The notes under the pieces were generated by a model that worked only from the letters and a program-made list of their open reading frames with translations, did not search any database and was not told the DNA's origin. From NCBI GenBank assembly GCA_001941045.1, contig MSHD01000047.1, forward strand, positions 1-46,878: a stretch of DNA of 46,878 nt, written 5' to 3'. Below are positions 22,986 through 43,945 of this stretch, one piece after another. The DNA is from Lachnospiraceae bacterium Zagget2. GTDB taxonomy: Bacteria; Bacillota; Clostridia; Lachnospirales; Lachnospiraceae. The first letter of the stretch is position 1, and each line of letters starts with the position of its first letter. The translations under genes and the position numbers were made by a program.

Positions 22986-23021
22986 GGAAAAGAGACTCTC
23001 CAGTTGCTGAAGAGTCTCTTT
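22986..23021 (-). terminator. Terminator of the UROD-family operon
   Basis: Minus strand AAGAGACTCT (23011-23020) pairs with AGAGTCTCTT (22990-22999) around an 11-base loop, followed by TTTTCC. It lies 27 bases past the CobW-like GTPase stop and ends the long operon that begins near 32830. Confidence 0.8.
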
Positions 23022-23047: not shown

Positions 23048-24007
23048 TCACTTATTTTGCATCTCTATATTTCGAAGCTTTTCTTCCAATGCATCCGCAT
23101 CCAGGTTTTCTCCGATCAGAATCAGGTAATTCAGCTTGTCGGCCGAGAAATGTTCTACCTCCGTCCGGAAGGAATCGCCAAAGACATAGTCGATCTTCTG
23201 AATGGTTCCGTCTTCCATTTTCAGGTAGGCTTTCGCACGCCAGATGCTGCCACTTTCTTTCCCCTGAAACAGCCGGAATAAGGCTTCGAGGTTCCTCTCT
23301 TTCAGATCGCTCTGAAACTGATAACAGAACTGATCTGTACTTTTCTCCCACTTTGAATCAATCGCAACCCGGGGACCTCCCGCTCCGGGTCTGCGTATCA
23401 GCTTTACACGTTTTTCCACTGCGGTCTGCGTCTCCCGGTCCGGAAACACGGTTTCGTCCAGCTTGTCTACCGGACCTTCTACAATCTCCAGCTCCGGATT
23501 TTCTTTCCAGAGGATTTCCTTTACACGCTCAATCTCCTCTTTGTCCATCGTTTCAGTAAAATTAAGATAAGCGGTTCTGGCGGTGCGGATCTGATCCGGG
23601 AAGAACGGGCCGATCACCTTCCAGAGGGAGTGGAATTTGTTGGTTTTCACGATCATGATCATCCGGTTCAGGCAGACGCCGCGGCACTCTGTGCAGGCTG
23701 AGATTACGTCCGACAGAACGGCGACGCCAGACGGCTCGACAATAATATACTCCGGCGCTTCCTGTTTCACCAGAATATCAATCGCATCTGTAAAATTTCC
23801 CTTCAAAGTGCAGCAGACGCAGCCAGAGGTGATTTCTCTGACTGCGACCGCTGCCTGCTGAAATTCTTCAGCATCCAGATTCATTTTGCCAACTTCATTT
23901 TCGATGATCGCCACCTTATGCCCCTGATAGGCCGTGGCCAGCATCTGACGGATGACCGTGGTCTTTCCCGCACCCAGAAGGCCGCAGTAAATATCAAGCT
24001 TTACCAT
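23048..24007 (-). CDS. CobW/COG0523-family metallochaperone GTPase
   Basis: A 319-residue G3E GTPase. The P-loop is GLLGAGKTT (residues 9-17), followed by ENEVGKMNLD and the metal-binding CxCC motif Cys63-Val-Cys65-Cys66 (SGCVCCTLKG). The C-terminal CobW domain carries VFGDSFRTEVEHFSADKLNYL. Such proteins load metals (Zn, Co, Ni) into client enzymes using GTP hydrolysis. It is the last gene of the UROD operon, 20 bases after UROD gene A, whose HxCG motifs suggest zinc sites. I infer zinc or corrinoid-related service to those proteins. This is a COG0523 member and not necessarily cobalamin-biosynthetic CobW. Confidence 0.85.
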   Translation of the reverse strand: MVKLDIYCGLLGAGKTTVIRQMLATAYQGHKVAIIENEVGKMNLDAEEFQQAAVAVREITSGCVCCTLKGNFTDAIDILVKQEAPEYIIVEPSGVAVLSDVISACTECRGVCLNRMIMIVKTNKFHSLWKVIGPFFPDQIRTARTAYLNFTETMDKEEIERVKEILWKENPELEIVEGPVDKLDETVFPDRETQTAVEKRVKLIRRPGAGGPRVAIDSKWEKSTDQFCYQFQSDLKERNLEALFRLFQGKESGSIWRAKAYLKMEDGTIQKIDYVFGDSFRTEVEHFSADKLNYLILIGENLDADALEEKLRNIEMQNK

Positions 24008-24027
24008 GGTCGCGCCTCCTTTTGCAG

Positions 24028-25113
24028 TTACCCCCTGTTGTACAGCTTATTGTAGTATTCCAGAGAATAATGATATAACTCATCCCGTGCGACAACTTCC
24101 TGGGACGGCACGCTCCGGTCTGTCCGGATCCACGGCATGCAACGGCCCTTCGCACCGAAATGATCCACGAAATCACGCATCTTTTTGCGGATTTCCGCTT
24201 CGCTCTCCGTATTATCGATGATCACCTGGAAGCAGTATGTCATCTTGTCGCCGTAATTTTCATACAGGAAATCCGGATCGTTGATAACCGCCTGCGGCGT
24301 CCACATATCGATGCCCATCTCGATCATCTCCGGCACATACTGCACGTTCTTTCCGCAGGAATGGAGCTCGATAAACTTGCCCTGCTCCTTTACATACTTC
24401 AGGAAACGCGTGGTGGCGGGCATGATCTGTTCGCGGAACATCTCGTTCGAGAAGAAGCCCGCTCTCTGGGTGCCCCAGTCGTCGTGATAGAGCACGCCGT
24501 CCACCCGGCCGTAGTTCTCGAATACCTTCCCGCAGCTCTCGATCTTGTAATCTGCCATCTTCTGGAAGAACTCCTCCAGAAGCTCCGGTTCCTCATAGAA
24601 CGCGACCAGGGACTCGTCAAACGGAATCATCTCGTGCAGGCGCTCGAAAATACCTTCCACGCACTCGTAGATATGGACACGGTTCGGATCGAGGAACTTC
24701 TGAAGTTTCGCTCCGTCCGCCTTGAAATCGACGACGGACAGATCCGGCCACTCCAGCTCTTCCTTCCAGTTCGCAAAATCAGAGATCGTGCGGGTGCCGG
24801 GTCTTGTAATCATACCGCCGACAGAGTCTACCATGACCCAGTCCACGCCCCACCAGTCGAAGCCGTCCACCTCCGGTACCGGGTGCTCTTCCATCGCATC
24901 CGGCCAGACAATGTTGGTCTCATACATATAGGCCGGCATCCAGTAGGGCTGCTTTCCTGTCACACAGCGCACATAGTTGTCGCGCACGCTGATCGGGCGT
25001 TCTTCGATCGGCTCCTTCGGTCTCTGGAAAATCCAGGGAAAAGTGCCCGGCTTCTGCCACTCCTTCGAATAATCCCGCTCAGCGGCCTGTTTCATAAATT
25101 TTCCTACAGCCAT
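24028..25113 (-). CDS. UROD-fold methyltransferase-like protein A
   Basis: A 361-residue uroporphyrinogen-decarboxylase-fold protein of the MtaA/MtvB-like branch, not HemE. The N-terminal arginine motif of true HemE is not evident. The probable metal site is His251-Ser-Cys253-Gly (IELHSCGKN), preceded by LYHDDWGTQRAGFF (His210-Asp-Asp). Related proteins transfer methyl groups to or from corrinoid proteins or thiols via zinc. GGAGG lies eight bases before the ATG. It follows protein B by 13 bases. Substrate and acceptor are unknown. Confidence 0.82.
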   Translation of the reverse strand: MAVGKFMKQAAERDYSKEWQKPGTFPWIFQRPKEPIEERPISVRDNYVRCVTGKQPYWMPAYMYETNIVWPDAMEEHPVPEVDGFDWWGVDWVMVDSVGGMITRPGTRTISDFANWKEELEWPDLSVVDFKADGAKLQKFLDPNRVHIYECVEGIFERLHEMIPFDESLVAFYEEPELLEEFFQKMADYKIESCGKVFENYGRVDGVLYHDDWGTQRAGFFSNEMFREQIMPATTRFLKYVKEQGKFIELHSCGKNVQYVPEMIEMGIDMWTPQAVINDPDFLYENYGDKMTYCFQVIIDNTESEAEIRKKMRDFVDHFGAKGRCMPWIRTDRSVPSQEVVARDELYHYSLEYYNKLYNRG

Positions 25114-25126
25114 CTATCTGTCCTCC

Positions 25127-26191
25127 TTATGCAAGCAGTTTTCTGCTCTGGATGTACAGTTCCTCCCGCAGCTTCTGCGGCATGACCAGCGTGCAGCAGT
25201 AGACAGGGGCATTCTCCATATCCTGGCAGTAGGTCTCCAGGAACTTCGCGGCGGCTTCCTTCAGCTGCTCATCCGTCGCATTCTCCGGGAAATCAATATC
25301 AACGCCCAGAACGATATCTTTTCCATACTTTTCATGGAGCATCTTCTTGTCGTTCATCGGCTGCCCTGCCCAGACATCGACGCCGGCCGCGATCATCGCG
25401 GGCACCAGCTTCTCATCTTTTCCGCAGCAGTGGAACTCAAAGCGAATGCCGAGCTCATGGCAGCAGTCGACAATCTTCTTAAGATAAGGAACGATCATCT
25501 CCATGCAGGTATCCAGCGAGAAGAACGGAGCTCTCTGTGCGCCCCAGTCATCGTGGAAATACAGCACATCAAAATCAAAGTATTTCTTCTGCTTCCGGAT
25601 CATGTTGCAGTAGAGATCGCTGAGCGCCGCGAACAGGGAATGTACGTCATCCTGCTGGCTGTCGTCGATCAGCGCTACTGCCGCGTCCTCAAAGTCCATG
25701 AAGGAGATCAGACGCTCAAAAAGTCCGGTAAACATCCACATCGTAGTCACACGATCCGTGTGAAGGTATGTGCCTTCATTTCTCGCTGCACAGCCTTCCC
25801 AGTCCCAGGTCTCGATATCCGGGAATTTGACTTTTTCATGCCATTCGGAAGCGTCCGACATCAGCGGATTGCCCGGCTTTACCATGGAACCGCCTGCGAC
25901 GTCGATGTACTCCCACTCGATGCCAAACATATCCTTACCGCCAAACTTTTCCCGTGGAAGCGCGTCCGCCTCGATGACAAAGCCTCTGGCAATATTGTCC
26001 GGGATGATCTGCGGCACAAAGGTCCGGAAGTCATAATAGATCGGAAGCCACTGCGGCTTCTCACCGGCCAGCATCGACAGATAATTCTCTCTCGCCGTCA
26101 CCGGTGTGCTGTAGCGCGGCATCGGACCGCCTGGTGTCATATACTGACCATTCACAGTCAGCTCTTTCTCTGAAAATTTTACTCTCTCCAT
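25127..26191 (-). CDS. UROD-fold methyltransferase-like protein B
   Basis: A 354-residue paralogue of protein A. The same architecture is visible: LYFHDDWGAQRAPFF (His213-Asp-Asp) and the metal motif His254-Cys-Cys256-Gly (FEFHCCGKD), with a doubled cysteine. The N-terminus RYSTPVTARENYLSMLAGEKP aligns with the ARENYLxxxxGxxP segment shared by all four HxCG members. The C-terminus includes VLGVDIDFPENATDEQLKEA. It lies between UROD genes C and A in one transcript. The reaction is inferred only at family level. Confidence 0.82.
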   Translation of the reverse strand: MERVKFSEKELTVNGQYMTPGGPMPRYSTPVTARENYLSMLAGEKPQWLPIYYDFRTFVPQIIPDNIARGFVIEADALPREKFGGKDMFGIEWEYIDVAGGSMVKPGNPLMSDASEWHEKVKFPDIETWDWEGCAARNEGTYLHTDRVTTMWMFTGLFERLISFMDFEDAAVALIDDSQQDDVHSLFAALSDLYCNMIRKQKKYFDFDVLYFHDDWGAQRAPFFSLDTCMEMIVPYLKKIVDCCHELGIRFEFHCCGKDEKLVPAMIAAGVDVWAGQPMNDKKMLHEKYGKDIVLGVDIDFPENATDEQLKEAAAKFLETYCQDMENAPVYCCTLVMPQKLREELYIQSRKLLA

Positions 26192-26225
26192 TTATTTTAC
26201 TGCCCTCATTTCTGTAATTTCTGTC

Positions 26226-27230
26226 TCAGTGATTGTAAAATGTCCTTCCGTAGGCGTCATACTCTTCCTGAATCCAGCGCCTTTTATTATTCATCTCCTC
26301 GTCGTCAGGCGCGCCGTAGACGCTTCCCCAGAAGATAAAGCCGCCGCCCGGAGCAAAGGTGTCGATCACTCTGCGGACCTCAGCACGCACCAGCTCTTCC
26401 GAGGCTCCCGGCCATCCGGCCGCACCGGATGAATCCCAGCAGCCTTCCAGTACGAGACGATTGCCATATTTTTTCTTAATGCCTTCGAGGTCATTCATGA
26501 CCTGCGCCGGGTTCCATACACAGACGCCGAAATCCAGCCAGTCGTCAATGAAATCTTCACATCTGCCGCAGTTGTGCATGTCGATGGGAAGTCCTCTGTC
26601 CGTGCCGAACTTCGCTTCTCTTGCGTGGAACGGCTTTACCATTTCGCGGTACATCTCCAGAGAAATAAACGGATTATTCGCGGTGGCGGTATCGTCCGTG
26701 ATGCACCAGACATCCGGCTTATAATACTCCATGAACTTCTCATCCATCATGCAGTAGAAGTCAGACATGTATTCGAACAGCGCCATGACTTCCTCCGGTT
26801 CCTCCGACATCGCGCAGAGTCCTTCGGTAAAGCCCATGAAATTCATCAGCTGCTGGAAATAGCCCACGTGCATGACGCCGCAGACGGCGGTCTGGCTACG
26901 GTCGATATTCTCCAGATCCTTCTTCGCCATCGCCTCCCAGTCAATATGTGAGACGTCCGGGGCCTTGATGACGTCACGCCACTTGGTAATATCGTCCAGC
27001 ATGAACTGTCCGGGTTTCGGGAGCGCCATATAACCGGTCTCCCTCGTGGTGACCAGCTCAACGCCCCACTCATTGACGCCGCCTTCCGGCGTGCGGCGCG
27101 CATTCAGAATGCCAGGTGCAACCCAGGCGCTGGCCGGGGCGTGGCCGGGACTCGGGGCAAGATTCCGGGGAACCCATTCGGGGACTTCTCCTCTTGCAGC
27201 CATCAGATAATTTTCCTTTTCAGATAACAT
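26226..27230 (-). CDS. UROD-fold methyltransferase-like protein C
   Basis: The shortest paralogue, 334 residues. It keeps the SEKENYLMAARGEVPEW start and the metal motif His219-Asn-Cys221-Gly (IDMHNCGRC). The HDDWG motif is replaced by CITDDTATANNPF, losing the histidine and the aromatic-glycine pair, so its active site probably differs from A, B and D. The C-terminal FAPGGGFIFWGSVYG resembles the GGG-FI segment of UROD enzymes. It is 35 bases downstream of the SLC13 gene. Confidence 0.82.
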   Translation of the reverse strand: MLSEKENYLMAARGEVPEWVPRNLAPSPGHAPASAWVAPGILNARRTPEGGVNEWGVELVTTRETGYMALPKPGQFMLDDITKWRDVIKAPDVSHIDWEAMAKKDLENIDRSQTAVCGVMHVGYFQQLMNFMGFTEGLCAMSEEPEEVMALFEYMSDFYCMMDEKFMEYYKPDVWCITDDTATANNPFISLEMYREMVKPFHAREAKFGTDRGLPIDMHNCGRCEDFIDDWLDFGVCVWNPAQVMNDLEGIKKKYGNRLVLEGCWDSSGAAGWPGASEELVRAEVRRVIDTFAPGGGFIFWGSVYGAPDDEEMNNKRRWIQEEYDAYGRTFYNH

Positions 27231-27265
27231 GGTCTACACCTCTTTTCTATATTATTTTTTTATTC

Positions 27266-28702
27266 TCAGAACAACATGTTACAAAGCGGATAGATCAGGA
27301 ATACCGTGATTGCCCATGCAACGAAGATCATAACGACATTCCACTTTGCCGTATTCTTTACCGTAATGTGGCCGGGACCGAAAAAGAACGGCGCTGTGAC
27401 CGCCGCCGAAGGCACCAGCGAAGCGAAGCAGGCCATCATACACAGCATGACAATGACGCCGATCACCGGGCCGCCGCCCGCTTCTACGATCGGAACCATG
27501 ACGCTGTAGAACAAAAGCATGCTGACGGTATTCGAGATAAAGTTTGTCAGAATGACACATCCCAGGCAGCCAATGACAACGATCACAAACACGGACATGT
27601 TGGATGTGACCGGCGCCAGAAGATTGCCGAGCCAGGCGGAGATTCCGGCACTCTCACTGCTGATCGCCGTGCCAAGCGTGACGACAACACCGATAAACAG
27701 CAGCGTGCTCACCGTCGTCGTGCTGGTCATCTCGCGGAAGGTCGATATCGGCTTTCCATCCACATGAATGACGCAGAGCAGCGCAATCGCAATGATCAAC
27801 GGCATGGACGATCCCCAGCTATTGTAAAGCGCCATCAGCTGATCGCCGAGCAGATTCGGAAAAACCACCGGTACAATCCAGTAAACAATCACCAGAAGCA
27901 GCATGATCAGGGAAATCAGACCCTGACGGCTTAACTTCGGCAGATTCGCCCTGTGCGCGTCCAGGTCATAATTGCTGAATTTTGACGCCTCCGGACGCCA
28001 TACCAGACAGATGACCAGGATGGATGCCACTGAGATCAGGATTGCAGCCGGAAGGCCGACCGAAAGCCACTGCGCATAAGTGATGTTATAGCCGCCCGCT
28101 GCCGCGGCGTTCAGCATGACCACCGGGAGCGCGTGTCCGAGAGGCGAACCTGCGTTGAACGCGTTCGTCACCCAGAACAGACCGATGATCAGCGCCGTAT
28201 AGAAAGGATCACCCTTCTTATAGCCGATTTCATCGCAGATTCCCACAATAATAGAAATAAACACAAGACTGACAGCGCCGACATCCACTGCGAAGCTGAC
28301 CAGCCCGCAGACAGCCAGAACCATCGCGATAAACACATAAGGCCTGTTACGGACAATCTCCATCGTGACCGCATGCTTTACAATATACTCAATCACGCCG
28401 GTATCCGCCAGCACCTTGCTGAACGCCATCATGCCGATTACCGTAATGATCAGAGAGGAACCGAACACGCCGCTGTACACCTCTGCCGGTGTGAGTACGC
28501 CGGTAAAGAAGATCAGCGCCATCGCCAGCCAGCTCGACCAGTCGGTCCCCAGCGTCAGCCATATATACAGAATCGGGATGAAAACGGAGAGCACATTAAC
28601 GCCAATCTCCGTCAGCCCATTGGTCGCCGGCACGAAACGCAGCAGGATAAAAAGCACAACTGCAACTGCCAGATGGATATAAAATTTTTTCGCCGACATC
28701 AT
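27266..28702 (-). CDS. SLC13/DASS-type anion permease
   Basis: A 478-residue permease with about 11-12 helices. It resembles the divalent anion:sodium symporter family (dicarboxylates, sulfate, other organic anions), with duplicated halves carrying NAFNAGSPLGHALPVVML and TNFISNTVSMLLFYSVMVPI. The ATG overlaps the stop codon of the 98-residue membrane protein gene by one base, so the two are made together. In this operon it is the likely importer of the UROD substrate or exporter of a product. The actual ion is unknown. Confidence 0.85.
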   Translation of the reverse strand: MMSAKKFYIHLAVAVVLFILLRFVPATNGLTEIGVNVLSVFIPILYIWLTLGTDWSSWLAMALIFFTGVLTPAEVYSGVFGSSLIITVIGMMAFSKVLADTGVIEYIVKHAVTMEIVRNRPYVFIAMVLAVCGLVSFAVDVGAVSLVFISIIVGICDEIGYKKGDPFYTALIIGLFWVTNAFNAGSPLGHALPVVMLNAAAAGGYNITYAQWLSVGLPAAILISVASILVICLVWRPEASKFSNYDLDAHRANLPKLSRQGLISLIMLLLVIVYWIVPVVFPNLLGDQLMALYNSWGSSMPLIIAIALLCVIHVDGKPISTFREMTSTTTVSTLLFIGVVVTLGTAISSESAGISAWLGNLLAPVTSNMSVFVIVVIGCLGCVILTNFISNTVSMLLFYSVMVPIVEAGGGPVIGVIVMLCMMACFASLVPSAAVTAPFFFGPGHITVKNTAKWNVVMIFVAWAITVFLIYPLCNMLF

Positions 28703-28998
28703 TATGATTCTCCCCCTGTTTGATCCTCATGATCGACATAATCCTCCGGATGCGGGGCGAAATACTGATTGACCTGTGTCGATCCGATCAGGGATGTGCA
28801 GGCTCCGATACCCAGAACGATCAGCTGAGCCTTTCCTGTCAGCAGAACGCCTCCAGCCAATGCGATGATAATGCCGATAGTACCCATAGTCAGACCCGAT
28901 ACTACATAACGGCTGTGAAAGAAATCATGGACAGAAAAGTCATTTCCCACAGGCCGGTTCTGATTCTCCAGGTTTGGCATATTTTTCAGTTGATCCAC
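28702..28998 (-). CDS. Small two-helix membrane protein, unknown; coupled to the SLC13 permease
   Basis: A 98-residue protein with a polar N-terminus (about 32 residues), two hydrophobic segments (VVSGLTMGTIGIIIALAGGV and AQLIVLGIGACTSLIGST) and a short acidic tail (HPEDYVDHEDQTGG). I do not recognise a named family. The GTG start has GGAGG seven bases upstream. Its TAA overlaps the permease ATG. The arrangement recalls small accessory subunits of two-part transporters; that is inference. Confidence 0.7.
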   Translation of the reverse strand: MDQLKNMPNLENQNRPVGNDFSVHDFFHSRYVVSGLTMGTIGIIIALAGGVLLTGKAQLIVLGIGACTSLIGSTQVNQYFAPHPEDYVDHEDQTGGES

Positions 28999-29022
28999 GA
29001 AAAATCCTCCTTTTCTGAAAAC

Positions 29023-29060
29023 GGGGCTGCCGTTTCTTGTTCAAGCTGTGCGGCAGCCCC
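29023..29060 (-). terminator. Strong intra-operon hairpin (attenuator or processing stem)
   Basis: Minus strand GGGGCTGCCG pairs with CGGCAGCCCC (29051-29060 with 29023-29032) around an 18-base loop, followed by GTTTTC. The T run is short, so it may only partly terminate between the MFS gene and the downstream small-protein/SLC13/UROD genes, or protect a processed 3' end. Confidence 0.6.
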
Positions 29061-29098
29061 TTACATGTCACTTCAGAAAGCGAGTGGCTTTATTCTGC

Positions 29099-30490
29099 TC
29101 AGGCGTTCTTCTTTCTCTCAGCGATCTCTTCGGTCATGCGGGCCACATCTGCGCTCGACAGACGGAAAGCGAAAGTGATAACAAGAACCGCAAAGAGATA
29201 GCATCCGGCAGGAATCAGCGTGATTGCGTTCGTCAGACCGGTCTTAACCGCCTGCGGAATGACTTCCATCCCCGCTTCGTAGCCAGTCACTGCCAGAACT
29301 GTCGGGATCAGGACGCCGGTGATCAGGACCGCGACCTTGACCGGGATATTGCTGATACTCATAACGAGGCCGGAGTTGTTGACGCCGGTCTTATGCTCCG
29401 CATAAATTGCGCAGTTCGAATACATCGTCAGGAAGGTGGAGAAGTTGCAGTTGGAGCAGGTTCTCTCACACAGGATGAAGATCGTGAACAGCAGCACGCT
29501 GCCGGAGAAGACTCTCGCCAGGATCAGGAAGATAATGCACAGCGGGAGCAGGCACTGAGACAGCCGCTTCGCCTCCATTCTCCTGCCAAGGATGCCGGCC
29601 AGCAGAGAACCGATCACGGCGCCGAAGTTCGTGGCAGCCAGATAGATCGCCAGCATCGCCGGAGCCTCCAGCGCATAGTTGAACTGATATGCAGCCATCT
29701 GCGCAAGGATAAAGGACACGGTCGTGGTGCCGCACTGTGCGCAGAACAGAGCCAGAAGGGGCGGAGTCTTGGTGATCGTGTTCACGATATCCTTGAAGGA
29801 AGCGCCCTTCTTCGGTGCAGCCGCGGAACCTGCTTCTTCAGTCTCCTCATAGCCATCGGAGATCTTGAAAATAATGTACTGACCGAGCACGCAGAGAACC
29901 GCGAAGATTACGCCGACCAGAATGTAGGGAATAACCGCCGAATCGCCGAAAACACCGGTGAAGCGTGCAATCATGAAGGTAACAATTGCGGAGATCACGA
30001 TCTTATCCGCATTGATCCAGGCCCAGCGTCTGGAAGAAAGGAACGCACGATCCTTCTCCGTCGCGCCGCAGACGGTGATCATTGTCGCGTTCGCGGAATA
30101 CTGCATATTGAAGAATACCGCATAAATCAGAGAACACGCGATGACGGCAACCATCGCCACGTTAGAATCCTTGATAAGACCGGCAGCCAGCCACTGCGAA
30201 AGGCCAAAGATCGCGGTGAACGGGGCAAGTACAAGAACGATCGAGCGATAACGCCCCCATTTCATCGGCTTCAGGCTGTCCATGAGCGCGCCGTACAGGA
30301 ACGACATGATAATCTCGCAGGTGTTGACAACGGAGTTGATGATCGCGACCACCGCCAGAGGCAGTGCAGCCACACTCGTCAGGTAGAAGCTCCAATAGTA
30401 TGTCTTATAACTGGAGTGGAAATCGAACAGGCAGTCGCCCAGACCAAAAAATGTCTTCAGGGCTGAGTTTAACGGCTTCTTGTTATTCAT
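29099..30490 (-). CDS. MFS transporter, GPH (glycoside-pentoside-hexuronide) type
   Basis: A 463-residue transporter with twelve predicted helices. The early FFGLGDCLFDFHSSYKTYYW and SFLYGALMDSLKPMKWGRYR match the GPH signature D-x-x-x-x-x-x-WGRYRP-like loop. GPH members import sugars, glycosides and other small organics with cations. GGGGGA precedes the ATG. It lies between UROD D and the hairpin at 29023-29060 in the UROD operon, giving the operon a second transporter of another family. Confidence 0.85.
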   Translation of the reverse strand: MNNKKPLNSALKTFFGLGDCLFDFHSSYKTYYWSFYLTSVAALPLAVVAIINSVVNTCEIIMSFLYGALMDSLKPMKWGRYRSIVLVLAPFTAIFGLSQWLAAGLIKDSNVAMVAVIACSLIYAVFFNMQYSANATMITVCGATEKDRAFLSSRRWAWINADKIVISAIVTFMIARFTGVFGDSAVIPYILVGVIFAVLCVLGQYIIFKISDGYEETEEAGSAAAPKKGASFKDIVNTITKTPPLLALFCAQCGTTTVSFILAQMAAYQFNYALEAPAMLAIYLAATNFGAVIGSLLAGILGRRMEAKRLSQCLLPLCIIFLILARVFSGSVLLFTIFILCERTCSNCNFSTFLTMYSNCAIYAEHKTGVNNSGLVMSISNIPVKVAVLITGVLIPTVLAVTGYEAGMEVIPQAVKTGLTNAITLIPAGCYLFAVLVITFAFRLSSADVARMTEEIAERKKNA

Positions 30491-30513
30491 TTTGGTTCCC
30501 CCTTTGAATAATA

Positions 30514-31563
30514 TTATTTATTTCCCGATGCGGACGACTCGTCGGACGCCGCATAAACGGTCTTTTTGAGTGCTCCGGGCTTTTCCGGAGGAATGTAGCC
30601 GACCTTTTCCCAGAGCGGCTGGTTGTACTCGTAGAGCACGTCGATCAGAGGCTGGCTGATCGTCGGATCGATCATCGTCGGATGGGCAACCCAGCTTCCG
30701 CCCGGCGCCATCAGCTCTACCCGGTACTTGATCTCATCATAGCGCTCCTGGTAGGTCGCGCCCTGACGGTCCAGCACGTTCTGATTATCGAATCCGCCCA
30801 CAAAGCAGAGATCCTTTGCATATTTCTGCTTCAGCGCATGCGGGTCGTTGGTGAGCTGCAGCGGGTTGAGTCCGTCAAAGCCGAGTTCGATGAATTCCTC
30901 AATCAGCGGAGCGATGTAACCGCAGGAGTGGTGTTCATACAGCATTCCCTCTGCATGAACCGTATCCACGATCCGCTTCAGATGCGGTTTGATCATCTTC
31001 TGCCAGGTAGCCTTCGACATGAACATGCGGTCGTTCGAGCCATAGTCATCATGCATCTGGATCTTGTCAGGCTTGTAATACTTCGCAATCAGCTTGATCT
31101 CCTCGATGCGGTAATCTGTGATCGCATTCAGCAGATCGCAGGTATCCTCCTCTTCCGTAAGAAGATAGCACAGCGCGTCCTCGATACCGGTCATCGCGTG
31201 CAGCTGCTCAAAGAGACCATCCACGATGATGACGCTGCTGATCTTGTTGACGCGGTCCCAGTTCGCGGTGTCCTTTGCCGCTCCGCCTTCCCAGTCATAA
31301 GTCTTCGGGTCCGGAATCTTCAGGACATCACGCCACTCGCAGATATCCTCGATGAGCTGCGTACCGATCGTAACCATGGGACCTTCCATCCCCTTTTCGA
31401 ATGTCCAGCTCACACCAAAGACATCGGTACTCACGCCAAAGCCCTGCGGTCCTTCCGGCACGCATGACGGCAGGCAGGTGTTCTGATCGAGCACCTGGCT
31501 GGGAACCCAGTAGGGCTCCTTGTGATGGTAGGCCATTAAAATATTTTCTCTTGCTGTTATCAT
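30514..31563 (-). CDS. UROD-fold methyltransferase-like protein D
   Basis: A 349-residue paralogue with the shared TARENILMAYHHKEPYW start. The acidic motif is IQMHDDYGSNDRMF (His171-Asp-Asp) and the probable metal site His212-Ser-Cys214-Gly (EHHSCGYIAP). C-terminal LMAPGGSWVAHPTMIDPT parallels the GGG segment of the family. GAGGTG precedes the ATG. It follows gene E by 13 bases and precedes the MFS gene by 23. Function is known only at family level (corrinoid or zinc-dependent methyl transfer). Confidence 0.82.
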   Translation of the reverse strand: MITARENILMAYHHKEPYWVPSQVLDQNTCLPSCVPEGPQGFGVSTDVFGVSWTFEKGMEGPMVTIGTQLIEDICEWRDVLKIPDPKTYDWEGGAAKDTANWDRVNKISSVIIVDGLFEQLHAMTGIEDALCYLLTEEEDTCDLLNAITDYRIEEIKLIAKYYKPDKIQMHDDYGSNDRMFMSKATWQKMIKPHLKRIVDTVHAEGMLYEHHSCGYIAPLIEEFIELGFDGLNPLQLTNDPHALKQKYAKDLCFVGGFDNQNVLDRQGATYQERYDEIKYRVELMAPGGSWVAHPTMIDPTISQPLIDVLYEYNQPLWEKVGYIPPEKPGALKKTVYAASDESSASGNK

Positions 31564-31576
31564 CCTTCACCACCTC

Positions 31577-32830
31577 TCATTTCTTTCCGTAAAGCTCAAT
31601 GGCTTCAAACAGCGCTTCTACATTTTCACGCGGGCACAGGTCCAGGGAACTGCTCAGGCTGAAGATAAAGCCGCCGCCCGGAGCCAGTACATCCATATAC
31701 TCCCTGACCTTGTCCCGGATCTGCTCCTTCGTCCCGTGCGAGACTGTGAACTCGGGGAACCCGCCCATGATGCAGGCAATGCCTCCCAGCGTCTTTTTCG
31801 CCAGGCGAATGTCAATGTCCTCGAAGAGATAGATGACCTTGCCCTTCGGAACATCGGCCAGATATTTCAGTCTGGTGTTATACGCTCCCTCGCAGAAGAC
31901 AACCGGCACGATTCCTTCGTCGATCAGCGCCATGATCCACTGTCTCAGGTAGGGCCAGTAAAACTCCGCATAGGTATTGTCACCGATAAAATTGTCAAAG
32001 CCCTTGTGCAGCATTACCCACTGATAACGGTTTCCGGTGCGCTTATAACTCTCGATCGACTGGGCAATGTGGATCTTCACAAACATCTCGCAGGCGTGCT
32101 TGACATTTTCCGGCTGCTCCAGCAGATCCGGCATCATGCCGAAGGTGCCTCTAAGGCCGTCCCCCAGCATATCAAAGGCCGTTGCGCTGCCGCCTCCGCA
32201 CAGAGACGGGAAGCCCTCCTCCTTCAGCATGGCTGAACAGCGTCCGCATGCCGCGAAGAAACGCTGCTGCTCTTCTGCAGCGTCCAGGATCTTCCGGTAA
32301 GATTCCAGAAGTTCCGGCGCCATAAAGATATTCGGCACCGCATTGTAGGAGCCGGTGATCGCCGCAGGATAATCAATCTTCGCAAAGGGTTCAAATACCT
32401 CAAAAACGCGCGGCAGCCATTTGCGCCAGGCGAACCCCGCAGGATCATTGAAGAACTCATCGTACTCGTCTTCCATCAGCGTCGCATACTCCACATACTG
32501 AAGCGGAGCATTCTCATCCAGCCCCTTCGGGTCTCCCGGCCAGCGCAGACACTTTACGCCGAACAGTTCCAGCACTTTGGATGAAAACTGCGCCGAAATG
32601 GAGCAGCCGATATCCGGCTGAAACTCCCGGTGATAACGCATATACGCATCAATCGCCCTGTCATAATCCTTCATCGAGTCCGCAATGCTCACGCCATACT
32701 CGTAGAACGGAAAATAATTGACTCTCACGCCATTGGGCACCCGGTCGGTCTCTCTCAGACACAATGCATCATCCAGAAGTTTTGAACGCTCCTCATAAAG
32801 CTCCTGTCCCGTCTTCTGACTCATCCGCAT
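31577..32830 (-). CDS. Divergent UROD-family protein E (FCEG type), first gene of the operon
   Basis: A 417-residue, larger and distant UROD-family protein. Where A-D have HxCG, it reads VVFCEGAYNTRLKYL (Cys313-Glu-Gly), followed by GKVIYLFEDIDIRLAKK and MDVLAPGGGFIFSLSSS. This FCEG-type subgroup is often annotated uroporphyrinogen decarboxylase family without known activity. Two start codons, 32830 and 32824, follow AAAGGAGG at 4 and 10 bases; either is possible. As the first gene after the divergent regulatory region it may define substrate entry. Substrate unknown. Confidence 0.8.
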   Translation of the reverse strand: MRMSQKTGQELYEERSKLLDDALCLRETDRVPNGVRVNYFPFYEYGVSIADSMKDYDRAIDAYMRYHREFQPDIGCSISAQFSSKVLELFGVKCLRWPGDPKGLDENAPLQYVEYATLMEDEYDEFFNDPAGFAWRKWLPRVFEVFEPFAKIDYPAAITGSYNAVPNIFMAPELLESYRKILDAAEEQQRFFAACGRCSAMLKEEGFPSLCGGGSATAFDMLGDGLRGTFGMMPDLLEQPENVKHACEMFVKIHIAQSIESYKRTGNRYQWVMLHKGFDNFIGDNTYAEFYWPYLRQWIMALIDEGIVPVVFCEGAYNTRLKYLADVPKGKVIYLFEDIDIRLAKKTLGGIACIMGGFPEFTVSHGTKEQIRDKVREYMDVLAPGGGFIFSLSSSLDLCPRENVEALFEAIELYGKK

Positions 32831-32971
32831 ATCCCCTCCTTTGTCCTGTATTTATCAGAAATTGCCATATTCTCTGTCCAACTTCTAAAATTTTTATTAA
32901 ATTTTAATATAATAATAGCGCAGGACCGGAGATTTTAGAATGGAACACGAATACAAAAATGCAGTCGGAAT

Positions 32972-33023
32972 ATTGTACATTTTGGTATTTTAAAACCATA
33001 AAATCTATGTTAAACTGTACAAT
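32972..33023. promoter_or_regulatory. Divergent regulatory region with paired TGTACA sites and pucR-type promoter
   Basis: The 235-base gap between UROD E and the regulator contains ATTGTACA (32972-32979) and its inverted copy TGTACAAT (33016-33023), 44 bp centre to centre or about four helical turns. Between them, on plus, TTGGTA (32982-32987), 18 bases, TATGTT (33006-33011) is a plausible promoter of the regulator. TGGT-N8-ACCA forms a smaller dyad around 32983-32999. On minus, an AT-rich stretch (32890-32930, with TATTAT/TATATT) should hold the UROD operon promoter, but no clear -35 is seen. These are candidate sites for the PucR-family protein. Confidence 0.55.
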
Positions 33024-33065
33024 GAAAAAGAAATATCAGCCTCAGGCAGGCCGGGGGACATGAAA

Positions 33066-34574
33066 ATGCAGCTCAGTATGTGGATGATTGCCAATCAGCT
33101 GGCAAATTTTGATATAGAAACGGATATTCAGAAGGACGCACCGATCGTGCTGCGCAGTGCGCGCAGAGCTTATGCGACAGAGTGCGTCCATGTCATGCCC
33201 ACCGGAAATGATGTTCTCTGCACGGGGGATGGAGGAAAGATTCTGATCCGTGACATCGAGATCGAATATGCGTTTGAGATCATACAGTCTATTTTTGACA
33301 CTTATGACGCCTGGAATGCAGATATTCTCCGCTCCGCCGCACACAATGACTTTCAGGCGATTGTCAACGACTCCTGGCATGCGTTTCACAGCCCGATCGT
33401 CCTTTTAAACGAAGATTTCAAAGTTCTTGCCATGACAGAGAGCACCGACATGGGCGGTTCTGATGAAGAGTGGGCCTACTTAAAGGAAAACGGTTACAGC
33501 TCTTACCGCGCCATCAAAAATATTACCCAGGACGGCGAATGGCGAAAGCACCGGGGCAAAATCGACGCCCAGCGCTTTCATTTTCCGGATAAGAAAAAGA
33601 TGAGCAGCTGCATCAGCGCTGCCGTCATTCATGACAACGTGCGTTACGGACGTATCAATGTACTGGAAAAAGACCGGCCTCTGAACGAGGGCGACATGCA
33701 GCTGCTCAGTCATCTTGCAAGGACGGTTGCGCCTTATCTGAGCCTGTATTATATGAAAGATGCAAACTCTGAAAGCTACAATGTATTTCTGGAGATGCTG
33801 AAGGGCCATCACACGGAAAAACGTGTGTTTGAGACCCGCATGGCCTACAAGCAGTGGTCTCAGAGCGATACCTATGTAGTGATGGTCATCGATTTCCGTG
33901 GCGATCGCAGCGTGATGCGCATGTGTGTACAGCAGCTGTCAGCACAGCTCCCGCACACCGAGCTGACTCTGCTGGAAGATCATGTAATTGCCATCGTCAA
34001 CAAGACACGGGATGATTATGAGAGAATCCGCCGGATCATTGAAAATATGGTTGTCAACTGTGATAAGTACCTCGGCGTAAGCCTTCCTTTCGAAGGACTC
34101 ACCTGGGTTCAGCATTACTATCATCAGGCGGCGGCAGCCATTCAGTACGGCATCTGTTTTCAGAATTCGAACCCGGCACGGGAAGGAAGCGTCTTTGAAT
34201 TCTATGACTATGCTGCAGATTATCTGTATGAGACCGCTTCCGGAAATGACTGTGCTCAGCTCTGCGCCTGCTCTCCGGACGCCGTCAGCCTGGTCAGAGA
34301 GAGTTACCGGGACGGAAATGATGAGAGGAGCAATACGCTGTATATCTACCTGAAAAACGACTGTTCTCTTTCCAGAACCGCACAGGAGATGCATCTTCAC
34401 AAGAACACGCTGCTCTATCGCCTGAAGAAAATCATGGACAGCCTGCAGTATCCCACGGAAGATAAATACAGCCGTGATTATCTGTATGGCTCGCTTCGGC
34501 TCCTGTGGCTTTATCAGCTGAAGTATCCGAAACTGCTTGCCCGCTTCTGTGAAAATGAACTGGACCAGGACTAA
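33066..34574 (+). CDS. PucR-family transcriptional regulator
   Basis: A regulator of about 500 residues. The N-terminal ligand-sensing region of about 350 residues resembles those of other PucR-like proteins (MWMIANQL, then a GAF-like middle around SSCISAAVIHDNVRYGRINV). The C-terminal HTH_30 domain has CSLSRTAQEMHLHKNTLLYR (about residues 425-447). PucR-type proteins usually activate adjacent catabolic operons in response to substrate. The ATG at 33066 is preferred because GGGGG is eight bases upstream; ATG 33060 is only two bases from it. It is divergent from, and so probably controls, the UROD operon. It ends six bases before the convergent cobO stop. Confidence 0.88.
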   Translation: MQLSMWMIANQLANFDIETDIQKDAPIVLRSARRAYATECVHVMPTGNDVLCTGDGGKILIRDIEIEYAFEIIQSIFDTYDAWNADILRSAAHNDFQAIVNDSWHAFHSPIVLLNEDFKVLAMTESTDMGGSDEEWAYLKENGYSSYRAIKNITQDGEWRKHRGKIDAQRFHFPDKKKMSSCISAAVIHDNVRYGRINVLEKDRPLNEGDMQLLSHLARTVAPYLSLYYMKDANSESYNVFLEMLKGHHTEKRVFETRMAYKQWSQSDTYVVMVIDFRGDRSVMRMCVQQLSAQLPHTELTLLEDHVIAIVNKTRDDYERIRRIIENMVVNCDKYLGVSLPFEGLTWVQHYYHQAAAAIQYGICFQNSNPAREGSVFEFYDYAADYLYETASGNDCAQLCACSPDAVSLVRESYRDGNDERSNTLYIYLKNDCSLSRTAQEMHLHKNTLLYRLKKIMDSLQYPTEDKYSRDYLYGSLRLLWLYQLKYPKLLARFCENELDQD

Positions 34575-34580
34575 GGGGCG

Positions 34581-35114
34581 TTACATCTCGATTCCTCTGC
34601 GCGCAGGGATCCCCTTCTCAAAAGGATGTTTCACCTTACGCATCTCAGTCACATAATCGGCGAGCTCCACGAGCTCTTCCCCCGGATCACGGCCGGTCAG
34701 GACGATCTCCAGATGTTCCGGACGGTTCATAAGAAAGTGAAGCGCTTCTTTCTGGTCGATCAGCCCATGGTTGTAGGCGCTCATAAACTCATCTACGATC
34801 AGAAGATCATATTCCTCATCCCTCGCCTTTTGTGCAGCTTCCAGAAAGATTGCGGTATAGGCCTTCGCCGCCGCCCGCTTCTGCTCTTCATTCATATTCC
34901 AGTAGAATCCAAAGTGTTCCGTACAGCAGCGGTAAGTGACGCCGAGCTGCTGCAGCATCTTTACCTCCCCGGAGCTCCCGTCCTTCATCACCTGGCAGAA
35001 CAGCACCTTCAGCCCGGTGCCGGCGGCACGCACCGCAAGACCAACCGAAGCAGTCGTCTTTCCCTTTCCATCCCCGCAGTAGATCTGCAGACATCCCTTT
35101 TTCAAAGCAGCCAT
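34581..35114 (-). CDS. cobO: Cob(I)yrinic acid a,c-diamide adenosyltransferase
   Basis: A 177-residue CobA/CobO-type enzyme transferring adenosyl from ATP to Co(I) corrinoids. The P-loop GDGKGKTTASVGLAVRA is near the N-terminus; later blocks are LLIVDEFMSAYNHGLI and LTGRDPGEELVELADYVTEM. The ATG overlaps the end of cbiB by 13 bases, with GGAG in front. It is the last gene of the cobalamin cluster, converging on the PucR regulator. Confidence 0.95.
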   Translation of the reverse strand: MAALKKGCLQIYCGDGKGKTTASVGLAVRAAGTGLKVLFCQVMKDGSSGEVKMLQQLGVTYRCCTEHFGFYWNMNEEQKRAAAKAYTAIFLEAAQKARDEEYDLLIVDEFMSAYNHGLIDQKEALHFLMNRPEHLEIVLTGRDPGEELVELADYVTEMRKVKHPFEKGIPARRGIEM

Positions 35115-36070
35115 AAAATTACTCCTTTTATGATTCCAAATACAACAAGTGCCAGAACCGCCGTCGCATACATGAGCCGGTTCGCACGGCGGATATCCTC
35201 ATACTCGACCGGACGGTCGGGATCTCCGATCGTCGGTTTCTCATACAGCTTACCAAAATAATACGCGTTGCCCGCAAGCTGGATATGCAGCGCCCCGGCG
35301 GTCGCCGCCTCGGTATGGGCGGAGTTGGGGCTCGCGTGATTGCGCCGGTCTCTTTTGCAGATGCGCCACGCATTGCGTCCGTCCATCCCGCAAAGTCCGG
35401 CAGCTGCCACCATCAGCAATGCCGAAAGGCGGGCGGGAATAAAATTCAGCACATCGTCAAACTTCGCCGCCGCGCGCCCGAAATACAGATATTTTTCGTT
35501 TTTGTAGCCGACCATTGAATCCATCGTATTTACAGCCTTGTAAAAAAAGCCGAGTGGTGCGCCGCCGATGATCAGAAACAGAAGCGGTGCGACGACACCG
35601 TCCGAGGCATTCTCTGCCACGGTCTCCACCGCGGCCTTCGCGACGCCGATCTCATCCAGCACCTCCGTGTCCCGCCCGACGACCATGGAAACGGCATAGC
35701 GGGCCTTCTTAAGATCGCCTTCCTTAAGCGCATCATAGACCTTCATGGTCTCCGCCTTCAGGGATTTTGCCGCCAGAAGCTGCCAGCAGAAGAAAGTCTC
35801 CAGGGCGAAATGCGCGTATGGATGCAGAAGCCCGGCAAGGTACAGCAGTCCCCATGCCACTGCCGTCGTGATTCCTGCGGTCAGAATCAGCAGGAAGACG
35901 CCTGCGATGAGCTCTCCACTCTCCGACTTTGGAAAAAGTCCGCGCAGTATTTTTTCGAGCCCACTGATCAGATGGCCTACCAGCCGGATCGGATGGTAAA
36001 TCCAATGCGGATCTCCGAGTAAAAGATCGAGCAGGAAGCCGAGCACTACGGCAAGTATCGATAATTCCAT
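35102..36070 (-). CDS. cbiB: Adenosylcobinamide-phosphate synthase
   Basis: A 322-residue membrane enzyme attaching aminopropanol (phosphate) to adenosylcobyric acid. Family blocks are LLDLLLGDPHWIYHPIRLVG at the N-terminus, SMVVGRDTEVLDE, VETVAENASDGVVAPL, NTMDSMVGYKNEKY and RDRRNHASPNSAHTEAATAG. Overlaps of 25 and 13 bases join it to the phosphatase and cobO. Confidence 0.95.
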   Translation of the reverse strand: MELSILAVVLGFLLDLLLGDPHWIYHPIRLVGHLISGLEKILRGLFPKSESGELIAGVFLLILTAGITTAVAWGLLYLAGLLHPYAHFALETFFCWQLLAAKSLKAETMKVYDALKEGDLKKARYAVSMVVGRDTEVLDEIGVAKAAVETVAENASDGVVAPLLFLIIGGAPLGFFYKAVNTMDSMVGYKNEKYLYFGRAAAKFDDVLNFIPARLSALLMVAAAGLCGMDGRNAWRICKRDRRNHASPNSAHTEAATAGALHIQLAGNAYYFGKLYEKPTIGDPDRPVEYEDIRRANRLMYATAVLALVVFGIIKGVILWLL

Positions 36071-36621
36071 CGCTTCGTTCCCTCCACCGGCGTCAGCAGA
36101 TAGCCGCAGCCGTTTTTTACCTGATAGTCAAAATAATTCATCTCCGGATAACCAAAGCGCTCGAGAATCGCCATGATCGTGCCGCCGTGCGCGACAATGC
36201 CCACGCGGGCAGCTTCCGGAAGTGCTTCCACGATCCGCTCAAATGCGTGGCAGCAGCGGGACCGGAAGAAATCCGTCGCCTCCCCGTTCGGGAAAGGCAG
36301 CGTCCCTCCGCTGTCGACCCAGGTCTGATAATCTGGATTGCCGGAGAGCTCCTCATAATTTTTATTTTCAAAATCACCGAAATCGGTCTCCCGAAGGTTC
36401 GGAACGATCTGCAGCGGTGGATGTTCCGGCCAGAGTAATTCTGCCGTCTCGGTGCATCGCTTCATCGGACTGACGAAGAGACGCTCCACCGCCGGCATCT
36501 GCTTCCCTGCAAGCTCGCGCCTCCCCTCCTCGCAGAGCGGTTCATCCGTGCAGCAGCCCACATAACGGTGTTCCAGATTTCCCGCTGTCTTTCCGTGGCG
36601 GATCAGCAGAATTTCAGGCAC
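36046..36621 (-). CDS. cobC: Histidine phosphatase, probable alpha-ribazole phosphatase
   Basis: A 191-residue phosphoglycerate-mutase-fold phosphatase. The catalytic RHG motif is LIRHGKTAGN (residues 6-15), with Arg/Glu in LRETDFGDFENKNYEEL and the second catalytic His in GIVAHGGTIMA. Its place among lower-ligand-assembly genes supports the CobC role, dephosphorylating alpha-ribazole-phosphate or cobalamin-phosphate. It overlaps its neighbours on both sides (8 and 25 bases). Confidence 0.85.
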   Translation of the reverse strand: MPEILLIRHGKTAGNLEHRYVGCCTDEPLCEEGRRELAGKQMPAVERLFVSPMKRCTETAELLWPEHPPLQIVPNLRETDFGDFENKNYEELSGNPDYQTWVDSGGTLPFPNGEATDFFRSRCCHAFERIVEALPEAARVGIVAHGGTIMAILERFGYPEMNYFDYQVKNGCGYLLTPVEGTKRWNYRYLP

Positions 36622-36994
36622 GTTTGATCACCGTTCCAATCCCGCACACAACGCGGTGCACTTCCTTTGCCCGCTTTGCGATCTCGCAGCAGACGCGCCC
36701 TGTCTTTTCCCGGTATTCCCGGTCGAACTGATCAACCGGTACTACGCCATAGCCGAGCTCATTCGTCACCAGGACAATATCCGGATTCTCCTGCTGCAGT
36801 TTTTCAAGGTCGATCTCCTGCCCGGTCTGTAGCATTCGCCGGATATACTCATGGAAATGGTACAGAAGCTTCACCTCGAAAATGGCCTCCATCGCACAGT
36901 CTGCGCCGTCCGCGGCGTCCTTCCGGGCAATCTGAAAAGTCTCAAATGCGTAATCTTTTTTTCCCTGAAAGCATCCCCCTGTTACCAGTATCAT
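36614..36994 (-). CDS. Short CobU-like protein (degenerate adenosylcobinamide kinase fold)
   Basis: 126 residues against about 180 for CobU. The N-terminus MILVTGGCFQGKKDYAFETF keeps a P-loop outline (Gly6-Lys12) but has Lys13 where kinases have Ser/Thr. The C-terminus VLVTNELGYGVVPVDQFDRE and VVCGIGTVIK matches CobU. The middle segment with the guanylylated histidine (RxxHxxR) is missing. A complete cobU lies two genes upstream, so this is a divergent paralogue, perhaps regulatory or with nucleotide-binding lost. The frame is intact and overlaps cobC by eight bases, so it is maintained rather than decayed. Confidence 0.7.
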   Translation of the reverse strand: MILVTGGCFQGKKDYAFETFQIARKDAADGADCAMEAIFEVKLLYHFHEYIRRMLQTGQEIDLEKLQQENPDIVLVTNELGYGVVPVDQFDREYREKTGRVCCEIAKRAKEVHRVVCGIGTVIKRA

Positions 36995-37021
36995 TCCCTG
37001 TTTCCTCCAGACCTTTCGTAT

Positions 37022-37789
37022 TTATCGCAGAAGACACTGCGCAATCATAACCGTGCAGGCGCAGGCAAGCTCCATGACCTGCAGAAAAAATCCCGCGATA
37101 TCCCCGGTCGTTCCTCCGAATTCCTTCATCGCCATGTGATGGTAATACCAGAATACCACTGCCGCTGTCGCCAGAATGATCAGCGCGTAACGCCAGTCCA
37201 TACAGGCCAGCAGCCCCGCGCAGCCGATGATCCAGACTGCAAGCGATACAAGCAGCACCTTTTTCTGCGCCGCATCGGAGAAAAGGGCGAGCGAACCTTT
37301 TTTATTCGCCTTCGGAAAGACCGAGAGCGCCAGAGCGCTTAACGCGCGCGACAGTACAAAAACCACCCCCAGCACAGGGTAAAGCTGCGTATCAAGCTCC
37401 GTCCAGGCGCCAAGAGCGAGTGTAAAGTATGCACAGCCCATGATAACGGCAAACGCGCCGGCATGAGAATCCTTCAGAATCTCGACTTTCCGTTCCTGCG
37501 GCTGGTGAGAACTCAGCGCATCCATCGTGTCGAGAAAGCCGTCCAGATGGATTCCTCCCGTCACGATTACCGGCAGCAGCACACAGCCCGCCGCGCGCAT
37601 CAGATCGCCGAAACCAAGCCATGCCGCGAGATATCCCCAGCCACAAAGAAGCAAACCGATGACCGCGCCGATCGCCGGGAAGAAGCACATCATATATTTC
37701 ATATTTTCTTTTTCCCAGTCCGCGCGCGGTACCGGGATACGCGAATACATCGCAAAGGAAATCAGAAAACTGTTCCAGACCCGTTTCAT
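37022..37789 (-). CDS. cobS: Adenosylcobinamide-GDP ribazoletransferase (cobalamin synthase)
   Basis: A 255-residue membrane enzyme joining adenosylcobinamide-GDP and alpha-ribazole. Key blocks are FAMYSRIPVP at the N-terminus, the metal-binding GGIHLDGFLDTMDAL with KDSHAGAFAV, and GGTTGDIAGFFLQVMEL at the C-terminus. Its ATG overlaps the cobU stop (ATGA). Confidence 0.95.
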   Translation of the reverse strand: MKRVWNSFLISFAMYSRIPVPRADWEKENMKYMMCFFPAIGAVIGLLLCGWGYLAAWLGFGDLMRAAGCVLLPVIVTGGIHLDGFLDTMDALSSHQPQERKVEILKDSHAGAFAVIMGCAYFTLALGAWTELDTQLYPVLGVVFVLSRALSALALSVFPKANKKGSLALFSDAAQKKVLLVSLAVWIIGCAGLLACMDWRYALIILATAAVVFWYYHHMAMKEFGGTTGDIAGFFLQVMELACACTVMIAQCLLR

Positions 37790-41713: not shown

Positions 41714-41717
41714 ATCC

Positions 41718-43927: not shown

Positions 43928-43945
43928 CGAGTGCTCCTGCGATGA

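Follow-up and report, generated by a model that had tools for sequence, protein, structure and literature searches.

A five-UROD operon in a Lachnospiraceae bacterium as a candidate methyltransferase I module served by a distant corrinoid hub

Results

Gene content of the five-UROD operon

The window analysed here is the whole 46,878-nucleotide stretch at positions 1 to 46,878 (forward strand) of contig MSHD01000047.1 from Lachnospiraceae bacterium Zagget2 (assembly GCA_001941045.1), and it carries at 23048–32830 a minus-strand operon encoding five UROD-fold enzymes (UROD A to E), two carriers, a small protein and a CobW-family GTPase. We propose that this operon is a methyltransferase I (MT-I) module of a hub-and-spoke corrinoid demethylation system, that it is probably controlled by a PucR-type regulator, and that it feeds the Wood-Ljungdahl pathway from imported methylated compounds, probably of plant origin; we give this reading a probability of roughly 0.78. 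It draws on the families and order of the genes, a single corrinoid hub elsewhere in the genome, the pairing of hub and UROD genes in a sister genome, and the co-occurrence of UROD A with the hub across the family.

A check of open reading frames (ORFs) bore out all nine genes of the run, with coordinates and strand, as listed in a preliminary description made from the sequence alone. The gaps between neighbours are 13 bp (E–D), 23 bp (D–GPH), 100 bp (GPH–small protein), 35 bp (SLC13–C), 34 bp (C–B), 13 bp (B–A) and 20 bp (A–CobW), with an overlap of 1 bp between the small-protein and SLC13 genes, and this range of −1 to 100 bp is consistent with a single transcript. The closing terminator named in that description is likewise visible 3′ of the CobW gene as a hairpin followed by a T run, seen only by eye because the automatic pattern scan admits loops of at most 8 nucleotides. 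Its inventory was incomplete, having overlooked the divergent PucR gene and the adjoining B12-synthesis genes. The features are as follows.

31577–32830, minus strand: UROD E, predicted MT-I of the CdmB branch and relative of O-demethylases (phmmer to CdmB, 9rui, E 1.9e-28; tree)
30514–31563, minus strand: UROD D, methyltransferase-I-like, motif HSCG
29099–30490, minus strand: GPH-type MFS symporter (PF13347, E 1.2e-47; TIGR00792 below cut-off)
28702–28998, minus strand: small 98-aa protein with a hydrophobic stretch (by eye), matching no family
27266–28702, minus strand: SLC13/DASS-type permease (PF03600, PF00939; TIGR00785 below cut-off)
26226–27230, minus strand: UROD C, motif HNCG, with clade-mates in Sporobacter and Alkalibaculum (47% identity)
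25127–26191, minus strand: UROD B, motif HCCG
24028–25113, minus strand: UROD A, motif HSCG, with orthologues at 69–81% identity in eight other genera (family sample)
23048–24007, minus strand: CobW-family GTPase (PF02492, E 5e-30; CobW_C, PF07683; GCVCC motif by eye)
22987–23020, minus strand: rho-independent terminator (9-bp stem, 11-nt loop, T run; read by eye)
32831–33059: divergent promoter region between UROD E and the PucR gene
33060–34574, plus strand: PucR-type regulator (GGDEF_2 and HTH_30), divergent from the operon
34581–45007, minus strand: cobalamin biosynthesis cluster (cobA/btuR, cbiB, cobC, cobS, cobU, cobB/cbiA, cbiJ-cbiET, cbiG, cbiD, cobT; the cobA, cobC, cobS, cobU and cbiG scores are below curated cut-offs)

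UROD A to D and UROD E belong to different branches

The URO-D Pfam model matched A, C, D and E above its cut-off and B just below it (23.1 versus 23.9 bits). The preliminary description had treated all five proteins as one H-x-C-G type; this holds for A to D, whereas E carries F-C-E-G and lies on another UROD branch. A to D fall in one clade of the UROD superfamily that has the H-x-C half of the MtaA zinc site. A profile built on 35 aligned proteins of this clade found a sole match among solved proteins at E ≤1e-5, MtaA (4ay7, E 4.2e-7), and aligned the H-x-C-G of A to D with HICG of MtaA, whose His and Cys we take to be its zinc ligands. Across the 35 clade members the His of the motif is invariant and the Cys is at least 90% conserved. 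C and D lack a Cys matching the third zinc Cys of MtaA, which presumably sits in the LAPGCG stretch, and A and B have a Cys nearby in unclear register. The MtaA/CmuA model TIGR01463 gave 18–28 bits against a cut-off of 235. We would not expect these proteins to act with coenzyme M in this bacterium. No HemE model in NCBIfam matched A to E at E up to 1e-3, ruling out HemE identity, and nothing was found in favour of the removal of carboxyl groups that had also been suggested.

Papers are cited here by PMC number for the parts available to us. One of these states that His-Cys-Cys marks the S-methyltransferases of the UROD superfamily and that one or both Cys are replaced in O-methyltransferases (PMC10418091); by this rule, the zinc pattern of A to D leans towards O-methyl substrates. 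Residues 198–416 of UROD E aligned with residues 207–428 of CdmB, a protein that is placed with the O-demethylases MtvB, OdmB, VdmB and MtoB, that reportedly does not convert methoxylated aromatics, and in which no zinc was reported (PMC13222342).

In a tree of 53 proteins, A, B, C, D and E formed five separate supported groups, each with relatives in other genomes, and E grouped with other E-type proteins apart from A to D, on branches that are long and whose inner order is unsure. These groups rule out a recent tandem duplication, agree with the earlier statement that the five enzymes are distinct, and place A to E, as far as the tree can tell, in separate old lineages.

A single corrinoid hub lies elsewhere in the genome

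Searches of the genome (66 contigs totalling 3.34 Mb; 98% complete) identified a single PF02607 corrinoid protein, at C35:39164-39796, and two RACo_C_ter proteins, one of them beside it; neither family matched on the window's contig, and MttB (PF06253) had no match in the whole genome, ruling out an MttB-type demethylase. The neighbours of the corrinoid protein on contig C35 are a methyl-tetrahydrofolate methyltransferase (MT-II), a divergent PucR gene, a DUF2284 protein and the activase, and we refer to this locus as the hub. Contig C12 encodes acetyl-CoA synthase alpha/beta, its methyltransferase, FTHFS and another PucR protein. MT-II, acetyl-CoA synthase and FTHFS exceeded NCBIfam cut-offs; the hub corrinoid protein and activase were above Pfam cut-offs and below the NCBIfam cut-offs of the models that they matched. 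The genome has 16 UROD-superfamily genes, comprising 12 PF01208 matches and four that were missing from that search list and were added to the count (C, E, C18:8439 and C53:58524). The UROD found nearest the hub is ~14 kb away on the same contig. These results uphold what the preliminary description had said of the missing corrinoid protein, activase and MttB-family enzyme near the operon, and the genome search that it proposed for corrinoid and RACE genes yielded a candidate for the shared corrinoid protein that it had postulated, with MT-II and an activase alongside. Its other option, enzymes working without a corrinoid, fares badly given this lone hub, which stands in line with a UROD gene in a sister genome.

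That cassette, in another genome of the same genus (L184, G012), consists, in this order, of a PucR gene and genes for MT-II (80% to that of the hub), corrinoid protein (75%), a UROD 65% identical to the UROD own14a, an activase and a DUF2284 protein; the cassette UROD joins own14a at 100/100 support, on the A–D side of the tree. Elsewhere, MT-II (45% to the hub) and corrinoid protein (40%) genes precede an E-type UROD gene (L190, G007), and in a Clostridiales metagenome-assembled genome a C-type UROD gene is followed directly by MT-II, 54% identical to that of the hub (L098). Two other named C-type loci have a corrinoid protein gene ~5 kb away (L113) or a DUF2284 gene (L115), and the remaining named C-type loci examined, a set outside which L090, L092 and L104 fall, had no hub gene in the stretch.

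Co-occurrence of UROD A with the hub

Among 397 family genomes, nine, the window's own included, had a close UROD A orthologue (at least 69% identity) and 12 had a UROD A homologue at E 1e-60. A hub corrinoid search at E 1e-30 was too loose, matching 360 of the 397 genomes, many in ~810–950-aa frames resembling methionine synthase, and bit scores were therefore used. The 29 genomes with a best score of at least 268 bits, a threshold set post hoc at the score of the weakest close-A genome (268.6 bits), contained all nine close-A genomes and 11 of the 12 genomes with an A homologue (hypergeometric values of 1.6e-11 and 4.7e-13, respectively, which ignore relatedness). With the score limit lowered to 200 bits, which 75 genomes reach, these values were 2.0e-7 and 5.9e-8.

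Many of the genomes counted combine numerous UROD genes with few corrinoid carriers. At least five matches to UROD C were present in 12 of 17 same-genus genomes, and eight of the 12 had exactly one PF02607 protein (G000, the window's own, G001, G005, G006, G009, G010, G013 and G014), with counts of four, four, six and zero in G002, G007, G011 and G008. Five genomes, reached via named contigs, had 14–33 matches to the A–D profile (E 1e-20), and the ratio of these to corrinoid matches (E 1e-30) was 30:5 in Sporobacter termitidis and 33:3, 19:1 and 14:1 in three further genomes. Some named loci are not independent genomes: L091 lies within G297 and L110 within G241 (identical hub coordinates and scores), and L090, L092 and L104 match G009, G013 and G005 in layout. 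S. termitidis is described as growing exclusively on a few methoxylated aromatics by O-demethylation and ring cleavage (PMC4585845; also PMC8359953), and mainly for this reason we take methoxylated aromatics as the lead substrate class.

PucR regulators recur at spokes and hubs

Ten HTH_30 matches in the genome exceeded the cut-off, six at UROD, hub or Wood-Ljungdahl loci and four elsewhere, two of the latter in frames of only 67 and 149 aa. Hub stretches were fetched by their corrinoid protein; in 12 of 14 (six same-genus stretches and eight from other genera) a PucR gene, in one case a short partial frame, lay within 2 kb of a hub gene. The two hub stretches without PucR are those of G277 (L173), where the hub MT-II and corrinoid protein genes follow acetyl-CoA-synthase-like genes (by eye), and G219 (L175), where they follow activase-like genes and are themselves followed by an MFS carrier that by eye resembles the one paired with UROD A. 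A PucR gene was also present in six of eight UROD A stretches from other genera. On contig C18 of the window's genome, a PucR gene beside two UROD genes is split over two frames (L018:10503-12058) and is possibly a pseudogene or an assembly error.

The region between the hub PucR and MT-II genes contains the palindrome TTCCTAC-N5-GTAGGAA. Exact copies numbered eight across 17 genomes; seven of them precede the hub MT-II gene and the eighth precedes an activase gene. Allowing one mismatch raised the count to 13, against 10 for a reversed-pattern control, so that the palindrome shows no numerical excess; an MT-II gene also lies downstream of two of the five inexact copies. An operator shared by hub and window was rejected, as the palindrome is absent from the window's intergenic region and a footprint over three divergent regions gave conserved blocks with no common palindrome by eye. 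Each PucR protein therefore probably has its own site. Among the matches listed, our open-literature searches that included PucR returned only an unrelated table mention in the text available (PMC9503626).

Gene content of the module varies between genomes

The same operon is present in G009 at 96–99% identity. In G013, PucR separates GPH and D from SLC13-C-B-A (70–84% identity; PucR 56%), with neither E nor CobW in the stretch. Other arrangements are GPH-D-E, a PucR gene with a broken frame, then an unassigned 474-aa ORF, C and B (L091); C-CobW-A-PucR (G218); PucR-carrier-C-A-UROD (G297); and six UROD genes (own13a-like, B-like, own14b-like, C, A and own14a-like) with a CobW GTPase, a His-rich protein and PucR (G274). 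The last shows that a multi-UROD arrangement is less rare than had been suggested, as a different genus of the family clusters six URODs. In G008 (L057) the corresponding chromosomal site, galE to cobA by eye, holds a different module of PucR, GPH, and own14a-like and E-like URODs, and part of this module is also in G005 (L056). The carriers beside A in other genera, galE, cobA and the Wood-Ljungdahl genes of G277 were identified by eye from their first residues. Such module exchange argues for independent MT-I units and against an obligate five-step chain.

Two other genera also have CobW-like genes, placed between the C and A genes, and the CobW GTPase is likely a metal chaperone. At L146:8344-9419 and L149:10454-11505, the interval between C and A encodes a short CobW GTPase (~206 aa) and, after it, a small protein that in L149 is His-rich and has C-x-C; the pair resembles a divided CobW accompanied by a metal-binding partner. 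The 98-aa protein of the window (28702–28998), whose gene overlaps the SLC13 start by its last base pair, is perhaps a small carrier subunit; it is conserved in L051 (98% identity) and matched nothing in Pfam or NCBIfam.

Several further UROD loci were seen. In the window's genome, a UROD with motif HSCG follows genes for a tagaturonate reductase and a galactarate-dehydratase-like protein in a TRAP-transporter cluster (TRAP by eye) (L017:6171-10454, contig C62), and in G011 a UROD gene lies by a TRAP-type cluster and then its own MT-II (81%) and corrinoid protein (82%) genes (L193:6864-15479, contig C19). These TRAP-linked URODs suggest that a methylated uronic acid, perhaps 4-O-methylglucuronate, is demethylated in a corrinoid-dependent way. 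An own14a-like UROD (54%) lies among genes that by eye resemble alcohol dehydrogenases, a flavin oxidoreductase and transketolase halves (L068:8354-9397, contig C53 of the window's genome).

Discussion

In the mechanism that we favour, the GPH and SLC13 carriers would import methylated, probably methoxylated and partly anionic compounds, and A to E, each acting on its own substrate or ring position, would methylate Co(I) of the shared corrinoid protein. The adjacent MT-II would pass the methyl group to tetrahydrofolate, the nearby activase would rescue oxidised corrinoid, and methyl-tetrahydrofolate would enter acetyl-CoA synthesis through the enzymes of contig C12. The window's PucR protein would turn the module on when substrate is present, the hub having its own, and CobW would deliver a metal, most likely zinc, to the URODs.

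Several observations weigh against this proposal. The operon itself lacks a corrinoid protein, MT-II and an activase; A to D have no close relative among solved enzymes, their profile reaching MtaA alone, at E 4e-7; and, with the third MtaA Cys not clearly conserved, their zinc site is incomplete by sequence. PucR is absent from two of the eight UROD A stretches. The co-occurrence statistics have the limits given with them, and there are genomes that do not fit: G403 (81% complete) has a 33% A homologue with the hub unmatched at E 1e-30, and G008 (88% complete) and G015 (77%) have C-homologous URODs with PF02607 unmatched. A low number of carriers per UROD is not universal, the ratio being 17:12 in Alkalibaculum sporogenes, for which the papers listed gave no phenotype.

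The preliminary description had the paralogues acting on one substrate or on related ones. A stepwise route, in which the five URODs each act at a different position of a single polymethylated compound (a polymethoxyflavone, lignan or trimethoxybenzoate, for example), would fit the retention of five separate lineages in one transcript along with shared carriers, and A, B, C, D, GPH, SLC13 and PucR are also found together in the different arrangement of G013. An obligate chain would be expected to stay whole, whereas the content of the stretches examined varies from A as the sole UROD (L147, L150) through A with C, B with C, and E, D, C and B, to six URODs; other members could lie elsewhere in those genomes. 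We consider such a chain unlikely: the single-substrate part of the earlier claim gives way to independent enzymes as the better fit, and the presence of several URODs per transcript stands. Whether some of A to E are instead other UROD-fold lyases or decarboxylases is a question raised by the remoteness of A to D from solved enzymes and by their incomplete zinc ligands; the conservation of H-x-C across the 35 clade members, the L184 cassette that has a clade member in line with hub genes, and the co-occurrence with the hub make this very unlikely.

As to substrate, methylated sugars or uronic acids (aliphatic methyl ethers) in place of aromatics are suggested by the GPH family, which by its name carries glycosides and hexuronides, and by the URODs beside hexuronate genes in the same genome and beside the TRAP-type cluster and hub copies of G011. 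The window operon has no sugar-catabolic gene, and A to D are only distant relatives of the hexuronate-linked UROD (phmmer 1e-15 to 1e-5), so that we think this class quite unlikely for the operon. Methyl selenium or sulfur substrates, as in type 1 mlp clusters, would be in keeping with several UROD/MtaA-like proteins per cluster and a distant similarity to MtaA (PMC10418091). Those clusters have their own corrinoid protein and activase, an almost invariable His-Cys-Cys and Se- or S-linked methyl groups (PMC10418091), whereas here the operon has neither component (a Ram/RACE gene included), the His and first Cys are conserved and the third Cys is absent from C and D and of unclear register in A and B, TIGR01463 scores fall far below cut-off, the carriers are GPH and SLC13, and there is the tie to a methoxylated-aromatic specialist. 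Membership of type 1 mlp was rejected, and we regard an mlp-type chemistry as highly improbable.

The closest known systems are the four-component O-demethylases of acetogens (Odm, Vdm, Mtv), which combine a UROD-superfamily MT-I, a corrinoid carrier, a pterin-binding MT-II and a RACE-type activating enzyme, with methyl flow to tetrahydrofolate and acetyl-CoA synthase (PMC12915777, PMC8359953). The present genome shares all of these parts, with two differences: five MT-I genes and two carriers stand in an operon with no other component of the system, and the corrinoid protein, MT-II and activase are encoded once elsewhere, with PucR at both loci. In L184 the components are encoded together with a putative MT-I of the A–D clade. 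UROD E is a homologue of CdmB over the catalytic domain, and CdmB works with a corrinoid protein and MT-II in the CdmBCA chloromethane system of Acetobacterium dehalogenans (PMC13222342); unlike that system, the operon has no analogues of cdmC and cdmA, A to D stand apart from E in the tree, and the likeness of E to CdmB is one of sequence. A. dehalogenans has 26 methyltransferase systems, whose partner genes were scored at distances of up to five genes or at other genomic locations (PMC13222342), so the separation of an MT-I gene from its partners is not in itself new; the available text terms the regulation of these 26 systems largely unexplored. For A to D, the motif H-x-C-G is shared with MtaA, whose third Cys has no clear counterpart. 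Of the possible undescribed demethylation system of the preliminary description, the chemistry is of a known kind and the architecture is new: a five-enzyme, two-carrier operon without a carrier protein, an identified hub and a repeated pairing with PucR. Our open-literature search, which did not extend to subscription papers, found no account of this arrangement in the text available.

It is difficult to assign MT-I genes that have no corrinoid protein gene close by, and here they are tied to one hub by the sister-genome cassette, the co-occurrence and the recurring regulator class. A single reconstituted hub of corrinoid protein, activase and MT-II could serve in assays of all MT-I enzymes of the organism. 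The genes behind O-demethylation in the gut are incompletely assigned, as in Eubacterium limosum, where three MT-I knock-outs left etoposide demethylation in place (PMC12915777), and the PucR–MT-I pairs provide a gene list and a candidate regulator class. More tentatively, at somewhat less than even odds, the A–D clade may be a large uncharacterised MT-I family through which many methyl ethers, possibly including sugar ethers, are demethylated via one or a few shared hubs in gut and termite-gut Clostridia, with a dedicated PucR for each spoke and hub. If so, the structure of the regulon could predict substrates.

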